Shown in pieces: positions 15,130 to 53,663 of a stretch of 64,000 bases of DNA (position 1 is the stretch's first letter; every line of letters begins with the position of its first letter). The stretch is from Brachybacterium squillarum M-6-3 (GTDB lineage: Bacteria > Actinomycetota > Actinomycetes > Actinomycetales > Dermabacteraceae). A program made the position numbers and the translations under genes. The notes beneath the pieces are model-generated. The model did no database searches. It was not told the origin of the DNA and saw nothing but the letters and a program-made list of their open reading frames with translations. The stretch is taken from positions 62,001 through 126,000 of the forward strand of contig NZ_AGBX01000005.1 in assembly GCF_000225825.1 (NCBI RefSeq). Reading direction: 5' to 3'.

Positions 15130-16725
<1,596 letters not shown>

Positions 16726-16783: not shown

Positions 16784-16829
16784 CGATGCCCGGGAATCTT
16801 CCACGTGAGGGGAAGATTCCCGGGCATCG
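16784..16829. repeat. 46-bp palindromic repeat, copy 1
   Basis: CGATGCCCGGGAATCTTCC (16784-16802) is a perfect 19-base match to the complement of 16811-16829. It lies 58 bases after the ffh stop and could also terminate ffh. Copies 2 and 3 have the same total length (46 bp) and the same 3' arm core (GGAAG..TTC..GG.CATCG), so this is a repeated element, not only a terminator. Confidence 0.85.
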
Positions 16830-16887
16830 CCGTCTGCACGACCCGTGCGCCCCCTGCAGCTCATCGGCGCTGGCAGGACGGCCTCCG

Positions 16888-16933
16888 CGACGTCCGGGTT
16901 TCTTCCACCTGAGTGGAAGGTTCTCGGACATCG
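16888..16933. repeat. 46-bp palindromic repeat, copy 2
   Basis: Arms 16888-16908 and 16913-16933 enclose the loop CTGA. The outer seven to eight pairs and the inner CTTCCAC/GTGGAAG pair well, while the middle has mismatches. The 3' end ACATCGCCG resembles copy 1 (GCATCGCCG). It lies 58 bases after copy 1. Confidence 0.8.
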
Positions 16934-17020
16934 CCGTGCTGCCCTAGCGGCGCCAGTCCTCCACACGGGCTCGTCGTCCACCGACGCGTCGAGGCATCGG
17001 CCATACCGCGTCGTCGTGCC

Positions 17021-17026
17021 TACGGT
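17021..17026 (+). promoter_or_regulatory. -10 box of DUF559 gene (leaderless)
   Basis: TACGGT ends 6 bases before the ATG at 17033, so the mRNA should start at or next to the ATG. Confidence 0.6.
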
Positions 17027-17032
17027 GCGTCC

Positions 17033-18028
17033 ATGGCCGTTCGCCCAGAGGATCTCCGCCGCGGCGCGATCTACGCCAGTGCGACGCTCCTGGGCGCGGG
17101 TATGCACCCCAGGCAGATTGCCTCGGCGAAGATGACTCGGGTCCTGCCCGGGTTCTGGGCACGCAGCGATGCGCTTCCGACGCTCGGCGAGATCGCCCGG
17201 GTGCTGCAGGAGACGCTGCGTCCGGGATGCCTGATCAGCCATCAGACAGCGGCCGAGCTGCTGAGATTCCCGCTGCCGATCCCCATGACGCACGCTGGCG
17301 GCGCGGCCCTGCACTGTCGGGGCCCGGGGGGCGCTCCTCGCACCGCCGGCAATCTCGTCGTCGTCCACGCGGCCGAGGGAGACCGGGAGCCGGTGCCTCT
17401 CCGAGGGCTCTGGCTGACCGACCCGGTCTCGACCCTGCGCGACCTGGCGCCGCGGCTCACCCATCCCGACCTCGTCGCCTGCGTCGATGCCCTCGTCTCA
17501 CAGGGCAGGGGAGCCTTGTTGGACCGGCCGCTTGAGCGGGTCAGGGAGGAAGCCGAGTCGTTGCGAGGGCCCGGCAGTGCCCGGCTGCGAGCGGCGGTGG
17601 CGCAGGCTCGGGAACGGGTGTGGTCTCCCATGGAGAGTCGGTTCCGCCTGCTCCTGACCGCCGCGGGATTTCCGTGCCCCACGATGAACCTGCAGGTCAG
17701 CGATCCTGCGACCGGGCAGATGTTCGTCATCGACATGGCGTACGAGCAATGGATGGTCGCGATCGAGTACGACGGCGACGGGCACCGTACCGAGGCCCGG
17801 CAGTGGCGCCGAGACCTGCACAAGAACGAGGTGCTGCATCAGCTCGGGTGGACGGTGCTGAGGGCGAGTGTCGACGACTACCGCCACCCGGAGCGCTTCC
17901 TCCGCCGGCTGGAGCATGCGCGGTCTGCGGAGCACCCCACTCGTCAGGCGATGTCCACAGAGCTTCCGCGAGAGTGGAAGATTCCCCGACATCGGAGCGG
18001 CACGGCCGAGGTGCGGGGCCTGACGTGA
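17033..18028 (+). CDS. AbiEi-like/DUF559 nuclease-fold protein
   Basis: A 331-residue protein of a kind common in Actinobacteria, usually annotated as DUF559 or AbiEi-antitoxin-like. The N-terminal 70 residues (HPRQIASAKMTRVLPGFWAR) resemble the winged-helix part of AbiEi-type proteins. The C-terminal 110 residues match the DUF559/Vsr-like PD-(D/E)xK fold: Glu in PMESRFRLLLTAAGF, then VIDMAYEQWMVAIEYDGDGH with Asp234, Glu245 and Asp247, and GWTVLRASVDDYRHP. DNA cleavage is plausible but unproven. No AbiEii-like toxin partner is next to it. Codon choice is looser than in its neighbours, which suggests acquisition. Two 46-bp palindromes lie upstream, and a third overlaps its 3' coding end. Confidence 0.8.
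   Translation: MAVRPEDLRRGAIYASATLLGAGMHPRQIASAKMTRVLPGFWARSDALPTLGEIARVLQETLRPGCLISHQTAAELLRFPLPIPMTHAGGAALHCRGPGGAPRTAGNLVVVHAAEGDREPVPLRGLWLTDPVSTLRDLAPRLTHPDLVACVDALVSQGRGALLDRPLERVREEAESLRGPGSARLRAAVAQARERVWSPMESRFRLLLTAAGFPCPTMNLQVSDPATGQMFVIDMAYEQWMVAIEYDGDGHRTEARQWRRDLHKNEVLHQLGWTVLRASVDDYRHPERFLRRLEHARSAEHPTRQAMSTELPREWKIPRHRSGTAEVRGLT
17949..17994. repeat. 46-bp palindromic repeat, copy 3 (inside the DUF559 gene end)
   Basis: Arms 17949-17969 and 17974-17994 enclose GAGA. The 3' arm (GTGGAAGATTCCCCGACATC) is close to the arms of copies 1 and 2, while the 5' arm has diverged in its middle. The copy encodes part of the C-terminus of the DUF559 protein (about residues 306-321). Confidence 0.7.
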
Positions 18029-18042
18029 GGTGCGGGCAAGAC

Positions 18043-18072
18043 GCTGGGGCTGGGGCTGGGGCTGGGGCTGGG
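18043..18072. repeat. five tandem GCTGGG hexamers
   Basis: Five perfect copies of GCTGGG give runs of four G separated by CT on the + strand, a pattern able to form a G-quadruplex. The repeat lies between the DUF559 gene and the amidohydrolase -10 box (59 bases downstream). It is a likely slippage site. Confidence 0.9.
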
Positions 18073-18130
18073 GCCGCGGCTGGCAGTGCTGAGGCGGGGG
18101 CAGGCCCCACCCGGGGCGGAGGAGGCTCGG

Positions 18131-18142: not shown

Positions 18143-19339
18143 ATGAGCGATGACGCGGTGGTGAGGTGGCCGGAGGCCGGAGAGACGCCCTCGTACCGGA
18201 GGGATGCGGCAGCCGGCGCGGCAGGTGCTGCGGCCGCCGGGGTCGACGGCCCGGTGTGGCACCTGCGGGGGCCGGTCCTCACGGGTCCGGGGGAGGAGCT
18301 GGCCGAGGCGTGGGTGGTCGACGGCAGGATCCTGCACGAGCGGCCCGAGCTGCCGGCGGGCACCGAGGTCACGAGCATCGACGGTTTCGCGGTGCCCGGC
18401 CTCGCGGACCTGCACTGCCACATCGGGATCAGCGACGAGGGCACCGGCACCAGCCTCGACGTCGCCCGGGCCCAGGCACGCACCGACCGCGACACCGGGG
18501 TGCTGCTGATCCGCGACGCCGGCTCCATCACCGACACCGCGCCGCTGCAGGCCGAGGCCGACCTGCCGCGGCTGATCCGCTGCGGGCGGCACGTGGCCCG
18601 CAGCCGCCGCTACCTGATCGGCTACGCCGAGGAGGTCGAGCCGGGCGACCTCGCCGCGACCGTCACCGCCCAGGCGCGTCGGGGCGACGGCTGGGTGAAG
18701 CTCGTGGGGGACTGGATCGACCGTGACGCCGGGGACCTCACCCCCACCTGGTCCGGCGCCGACTTCGACGCCGCCGCGGAGGCCGCCCACGCCGCCGGGG
18801 CCCGCATCACCACCCACACGTTCGACGAGGAGACCCTGCCGCTGGTGCTCGCGGCCGGGTTCGACTGCCTCGAGCACGCCACCGGCCTCACCGACGAGAC
18901 CATCCGCGCCACCGCCGCGGCCGGTATCCCCGTGGTGACGACCTTGGTCAACGTCGGCGAGTTCGAGGCCTACGCCGCCCAGGGTGAGCGGAAGTTCCCC
19001 CGCTATGCCGCGCACATGCGGAGGCTGCGCGCGGATCGCTACCGCCGCACCCGTGATGCCCACGACGCCGGGGTCCCCCTGCTGGTGGGCACCGACGCCG
19101 GGGGAGTGCTCGGCCACGGCATCGTCCACCAGGAGCTCGACGAGCTCGCCGCCGCGGGCCTCAGCCCCATCGCGATCCTCGAGGCGGCCAGCTGGGGCCC
19201 CCGTCGGTTCCTCGGCGTCCCCGCCCTCGAGGACGGCGCCCCCGCCGACCTGCTGGTGCTCCCCACCGATCCGCGCGAGGACCATCGCGCCCTGCGGGAG
19301 CCGGAACTGATCCTGCTCGCCGGACGCCGCGTGGGCTGA
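18143..19339 (+). CDS. amidohydrolase family protein (imidazolonepropionase-like)
   Basis: A 398-residue metal-dependent hydrolase of the amidohydrolase superfamily. Visible parts are the strand-1 metal site in GLADLHCHIG (His91, His93), a Lys in GWVKLVGDW, His in ITTHTFDEETL and LEHATG, and the late Asp in GTDAGGVLGHG. C-terminal strands (GVPALEDGAPADLLVLP) close the small composite domain. The pattern fits the imidazolonepropionase/prolidase-like branch, but the substrate cannot be read from sequence. The ATG sits directly after a -10 box, and the mRNA is predicted to be leaderless. A hairpin separates it from the downstream transporter gene. Confidence 0.85.
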   Translation: MSDDAVVRWPEAGETPSYRRDAAAGAAGAAAAGVDGPVWHLRGPVLTGPGEELAEAWVVDGRILHERPELPAGTEVTSIDGFAVPGLADLHCHIGISDEGTGTSLDVARAQARTDRDTGVLLIRDAGSITDTAPLQAEADLPRLIRCGRHVARSRRYLIGYAEEVEPGDLAATVTAQARRGDGWVKLVGDWIDRDAGDLTPTWSGADFDAAAEAAHAAGARITTHTFDEETLPLVLAAGFDCLEHATGLTDETIRATAAAGIPVVTTLVNVGEFEAYAAQGERKFPRYAAHMRRLRADRYRRTRDAHDAGVPLLVGTDAGGVLGHGIVHQELDELAAAGLSPIAILEAASWGPRRFLGVPALEDGAPADLLVLPTDPREDHRALREPELILLAGRRVG

Positions 19340-53616: not shown

Positions 53617-53663
53617 GCACGAGCAAGGCCCCGTCCGATCATCGGACGGGGCCTTGCTCGTGC
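53617..53663. terminator. bidirectional terminator between truB and the L,D-transpeptidase gene
   Basis: A 23-base perfect inverted repeat (53617-53639 with 53641-53663) with one base at its centre. It starts with GCACGAGCAAGGCCCCGTCC. The genes converge on it, so it likely works from both sides. Confidence 0.85.

Follow-up and report, generated by a model that had tools for sequence, protein, structure and literature searches.

A Vsr-like nuclease gene bracketed by matched palindromes: a candidate palindrome-nuclease unit of Actinomycetota

In the genome of Brachybacterium squillarum M-6-3, a gene for a DUF559 nuclease-like protein is accompanied by three copies of one palindrome, which raises the question of whether the gene and the palindromes belong together. 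The locus lies in a stretch of 64,000 nucleotides (contig NZ_AGBX01000005.1, positions 62,001 to 126,000), hereafter called the window, and window coordinates are used below unless a contig or locus is named.

The nuclease-like gene (17033..18028, plus strand, 331 aa, MTES_1575/DUF559 type) is located between ffh (end at 16725; assigned on the basis of its sequence) and an amidohydrolase gene (18143-19339). Its start at 17033 was picked by comparison with relatives, and a longer GTG start at 16913 is possible. The first-pass annotation had placed three 46-bp inverted repeats here, and their positions are correct. Copy 1 (16784..16829) and copy 2 (16888..16933), which follows 104 bp after copy 1 and is 82% identical to it, lie 5' of the gene, and copy 3 (17949..17994; 72% identity to copy 1) is the 3' partner, within the last codons of the ORF. 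The three copies can be aligned in register without gaps, and each folds much more strongly than its dinucleotide shuffles (z-scores of -7.2, -4.7 and -3.8 for copies 1 to 3; 0/200 shuffles for each). The 19-base perfect pairing that had been claimed for copy 1 was also found, with an 8-base centre. The core pattern of the palindromes has five matches in the window, versus 0.3 expected. Inspection of the sequence revealed no T-run behind any of the three copies, and an Rfam scan of the window found nothing, including no intron family. Two other repeats were observed in the window: a short tandem repeat of GGGGCT directly past the nuclease gene (18041-18075) and, at 53617-53663, the strongest perfect hairpin of the window, with 22-bp arms (GCACGAGCAAGGCCCCGTCCG...), which is unrelated to the palindromes of the nuclease gene.

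The Vsr-like nuclease fold that had been attributed to the protein holds. Residues 228-295 (17714..17917, plus strand) form a C-terminal MTES_1575/DUF559 nuclease domain, identified by Pfam above the curated cut-offs (PF18741, E 3e-10), by alignment, by Foldseek and by a profile match. The best relevant Foldseek match of this domain is the catalytic domain of the homing endonuclease I-Bth0305I (PDB 3r3p; probability 1.00, TM-score 0.73 on the target), with a modest E-value of 0.018 and mitoribosomal proteins ranking close by, and 3r3p ranks first in the sequence profile search (E 6e-4). An alignment of 16 relatives showed no variation at S198-P199-E201, E245-Y-D247, H251, D261 and K264 and next to none at D234, E201 being just upstream of the nuclease domain. 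Among these 16 aligned members, Pfam matches were solely to MTES_1575, DUF559 and DUF2726, with no HUH transposase domain. The region N-terminal to the nuclease domain, of about 200 residues, has no firm assignment, and the hints of a winged-helix DNA-binding domain there, as in AbiEi antitoxins, are weak matches of two relatives. The AbiEi-like label given earlier to the gene is weak: PADLOC AbiEi models matched two relatives (L031 and L027; E about 1e-4 to 1e-2) and gave no match for the window protein, and no DUF1814/AbiEii toxin gene, the partner of AbiEi, lies beside the window gene, the next gene being the amidohydrolase. Searches with NCBIfam and PADLOC revealed just weak similarity to defence nucleases (PADLOC PDC-S37, mREase_II) or to AbiEi.

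The predicted structure of the protein has a pLDDT of 87.6, with values below 50 for residues 302-331. This C-terminal tail (17936..18025, plus strand), predicted to be disordered, is largely encoded by copy 3 and is missing in the aligned relatives. Since relatives lack the tail and it is predicted to be disordered, it is more apt to regard copy 3 as a palindrome on the downstream side through which the ORF reads. The earlier suggestion that a hairpin had entered the gene end was not borne out, the downstream copy being the usual second member of a pair, as comparison with other loci indicates.

We studied 116 loci, with one genome per species, in Brachybacterium and in further actinobacterial genera, among them Oerskovia, Isoptericola, Jiangella, Cellulomonas, Sanguibacter, Agrococcus and Leifsonia. 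The nuclease gene family is present in all 38 Brachybacterium genomes. At the 53 Brachybacterium loci, the density of hairpins with a score of at least 16 is 0.48 per kb around the gene, versus 0.05 per kb in 400 kb of control DNA; that 14 of these loci were counted in the wrong orientation matters little, because both flanks were counted. At the 63 loci of other genera, the density is 0.91 per kb close to the gene, versus 0.07 per kb farther away. At least one strong hairpin was found near the gene in 84 of the 116 loci. The palindromes are 44-90 bp long (median about 60 bp); between the matched end of the gene and the start of the downstream palindrome there are usually no more than about 130 bases. 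A search for a core shared across all palindromes gave a weak tendency, namely CCA...TGG near the loop in Brachybacterium. Judged by hairpin density, bracketing pairs and matched flanks, the tie between DUF559-type genes and palindromes that was proposed for this locus holds far past it.

The palindromes are matched within a locus and mostly different between loci. Under a strict hairpin criterion, two mutually homologous hairpins bracket the gene in 44/116 loci (18 pairs in direct orientation, 12 inverted and 14 undecided), and control DNA of 493 kb, in which 68 hairpins were found, contained no homologous bracketing pair. Local alignment of the flanks reached a score of at least 25 in 24/49 Brachybacterium loci versus 41/2352 cross-locus pairs and in 39/59 loci of other genera versus 140/3422, the cross-locus controls being partly inflated by base composition. 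As a within-genome control, which covers Brachybacterium, gene-sized brackets elsewhere in the genomes reached this score in 20/500 cases, the top ones resembling long coding similarities. In an even sample of the phylum (149 genomes, 37 of them with the gene family), the flanks scored at least 25 in 13/28 loci versus 0/756 cross-locus pairs, and at least 22 in 16/28 versus 1/756. The strict short-loop criterion recovered one pair in 28 in this sample of distant relatives, though the flanks still match; the repeats there are often less perfect or longer-centred, and several look like long-centre palindromes. In the distant relatives L360, L352 and L364, the flanking repeats are inverted and some are long-centred, unlike the direct pairs elsewhere.

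Palindrome and protein also change together. Palindrome similarity is correlated with protein similarity (Mantel rho 0.24, reached by 0/2000 permutations), only among close proteins, and the mean palindrome score is 40.8 within a locus versus 8-10 for most other pairs. The two palindromes of an Oerskovia locus share one inner stem, which is specific to the species. Some stem changes are paired: among the 11 copies of the palindrome family of Brachybacterium sp. FME24, changes on both sides occur at 5/23 stem positions, a number reached by 8/500 shuffles. The number of cells changed on both sides was reached by 96/500 shuffles, so that these paired changes, which rest on single-sequence changes, are modest evidence.

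Further copies of the palindromes are dispersed in the genome of the cognate gene. In the window genome (G000; 3.19 Mb, 8 contigs), three more copies of the window family were found, at 550096, 586081 and 592322 of contig C8, each of them apparently intergenic and a short way past a gene end according to the ORF lists. All three are confined to 42 kb of this contig. The same genome contains three divergent paralogs of the nuclease gene, and the one at C8:259379 (41% identity) likewise has a hairpin of 44-46 bp on either side, in a sequence unlike the window family. The FME24 family has two copies beside its gene and nine elsewhere in that genome, five of the nine within 104 kb of one contig (G029:C28:59910-163393). 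The window family occurs in 1/38 Brachybacterium genomes, the one with its cognate gene, and the FME24 family in 0 of 37 congeners of FME24; copies unconnected with the gene, or present in genomes without it, the outcome that would have spoken against the first-pass proposal, were not seen for these two families. A Jiangella family was found in 5/5 Jiangella genomes, at roughly ten loci each and with many near-perfect solo palindromes, and in 0/3 other genera.

Presence and absence of genes and palindromes could be followed at three kinds of orthologous site. Fifteen Brachybacterium species carry the nuclease gene between ffh and the amidohydrolase gene, and in 14 others this site is empty. 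At one empty site there is a lone palindrome that resembles the two gene-flanking copies of a congener, and our reading of the site in G037 suggests two degenerate palindrome-like remnants and no gene. Of the 17 members of one clade in the protein tree, 14 are ffh-site genes, and the other three, nested among them, are located elsewhere; two of these relocated members come from genomes in which the ffh site is empty (G015 and G023). A site beside greA in Oerskovia is occupied, with three palindrome versions, decayed or empty. In Jiangella, a 67-bp solo palindrome is missing at the same gene junction in four sister species. At the ffh, greA and Jiangella sites, neither base-exact insertion ends nor target duplications were found, and presence and absence are demonstrated without a base-exact empty site. 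The intergenic region between an SMP-30-like gene and glpK contains palindromes of differing families across Brachybacterium species (L024:5000-5360; G000:C8 about 550000-550330). In G000, this region also contains a second, unrelated palindrome (GCCCCGCTTTTCGACGTTTCC...).

We suggest, with a probability of about 0.68, that the locus is a palindrome-nuclease unit, in which a Vsr-like nuclease of the EDxHD type would recognise the cognate palindrome that brackets its gene and drive the spread of this palindrome. The enzyme may recognise the palindrome as a duplex, a cruciform or a single-strand hairpin, and copying would start with a cut at or near the palindrome or its target. New copies might then arise by repair copying or by another route, seeding the palindrome in intergenic DNA as short non-autonomous elements, and the copies within a genome would be kept alike by homogenisation. 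The gene itself would mostly stay at one site and be vertically inherited, with occasional relocation and loss. In favour of such a unit are the matched pairs, the restriction of palindrome families to genomes with the cognate gene, their dispersed copies, the joint change of palindrome and protein, the presence and absence at orthologous sites, and the similarity of the enzyme to I-Bth0305I; binding, cutting and the route of copying are inferred. Some of our results count against such a unit: copies per genome are low (about 5-14), no matched pair is detectable for many genes of the family, several ffh-site relatives have no clear palindrome, and neither clean element ends nor target duplications were seen at the sites compared. 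Moreover, gene conversion between repeats 1-2 kb apart could explain part of the matched pairs.

Other explanations would give the palindromes a different role. They might be operators through which the protein, binding with its N-terminal region, would control its own gene in the way of AbiEi/Rv2827c-type antitoxins at promoter inverted repeats; Rv2827c and AbiEi bind 23-bp inverted repeats in their own promoters (PMC7319586), palindromes lie 5' of the start in many loci, and two relatives have weak AbiEi matches. Operators would not call for a matched copy 3' of the gene or for further copies beside unrelated genes, the lengths of 44-90 bp exceed those of such operators, and the gene that follows in the window encodes an amidohydrolase and not a DUF1814 toxin. 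We consider regulation unlikely as the explanation, although an operator role can coexist with a palindrome-nuclease unit. Another enzyme might instead spread the palindromes, with the nuclease gene as a cargo that had become trapped between two copies or was directed towards them. The ffh site that has one palindrome and no gene would fit such a history, as would the excess of solo over flanking copies in FME24. However, very different palindrome families bracket the same enzyme family in many genera, palindrome similarity follows protein similarity, and families are restricted to the genome carrying the cognate gene, which makes a passive role for the nuclease quite improbable.

The two remaining explanations appear very improbable. 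Solo copies tend to sit right past gene ends in the window genome and in FME24, as would be expected if the palindromes were transcription terminators, insulators or similar ordinary hairpins and surrounded the gene by chance. Yet terminators need neither homology on both sides of one gene nor genome-specific families, and both the lack of homologous pairs among the control hairpins and the lack of T-runs behind the window copies argue against them. The weak matches of the nuclease domain to PDC-S37 and mREase_II would be consistent with a device for self-recognition or defence, in which the palindromes would identify DNA as self or as invading and the enzyme would act on them without any role in their spread. 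Such a device would leave the lineage-specific dispersal unexplained, and an unsystematic reading of loci brought to light neither a methylase nor any other recurring partner.

The classical example of a bacterial gene tied to dispersed palindromes is the REP/RAYT system. On balance, we favour the view that the Actinomycetota harbour a REP-type system of their own, separate from RAYT, in which Vsr-like/EDxHD nucleases would recognise, copy and homogenise their own long palindromes, with a specificity that changes quickly together with the protein. We found no earlier description of a link between DUF559 and palindromes in the open-access literature. A second case in another phylum, built on an unrelated enzyme, would show that such partnerships evolved repeatedly. 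It would also give the DUF559/MTES_1575 family a testable role, make part of the dispersed actinobacterial palindromes traceable to a gene, and offer naturally matched enzyme-palindrome pairs of differing specificities for the study of hairpin and palindrome recognition.

Several known systems share features with these loci. The EDxHD homing endonuclease I-Bth0305I (3r3p) has the same catalytic fold with conserved acidic and His residues (E/D/E-x-D/H), and genes of this type are likewise present or absent at the same site between relatives. In our case, however, the gene is free-standing and intergenic instead of lying within an intron or intein, it is bracketed by two full palindromes where a homing endonuclease has one split target site (a split cut site may exist here as well), and its product has an extra N-terminal region of about 200 residues. 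AbiEi-type antitoxins of type IV toxin-antitoxin systems share the upstream inverted repeats and, in two relatives, a weak N-terminal similarity. Our loci differ in the nuclease C-terminus of the protein and in the matched repeats, which flank the gene on either side and recur at other places in the genome; in the window, no DUF1814 toxin adjoins the gene. Insertion sequences of the IS200/IS605 type and MITEs also have one gene between two hairpin-forming ends and short gene-less derivatives, whereas at our loci we found no HUH or DDE transposase domain, no multi-copy identical units and no target duplication.

RAYTs are reported to be flanked by two REPs, to coevolve with them and to correlate with the abundance of cognate REPs (PMC2817692). 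Membership of the RAYT family was considered for the nuclease genes and rejected: there is no HUH transposase domain, the GTAG tag that marks the palindrome end in the RAYT system was found in 2/88 palindromes, and copy number is low. The RAYT enzyme is a HUH tyrosine transposase, IS200/IS605-like, and here the enzyme is a Vsr-like nuclease; the palindromes are also longer (44-90 bp), they have about 5-14 copies versus more than 100 for typical REPs, and the orientation of the pairs is mixed. What the nuclease loci have in common with REPtrons (Nunvar 2010, PMC2817692; Bertels and Rainey 2011, PMC3116915; Di Nocera 2013, PMC3733652) is a single gene with two flanking palindrome copies, a palindrome that changes together with the protein, cognate palindromes dispersed in the gene's own genome, and orthologous genes that keep their place while the repeats change. 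The proposed palindrome-nuclease unit resembles RAYT/REP in its architecture and in its population behaviour.
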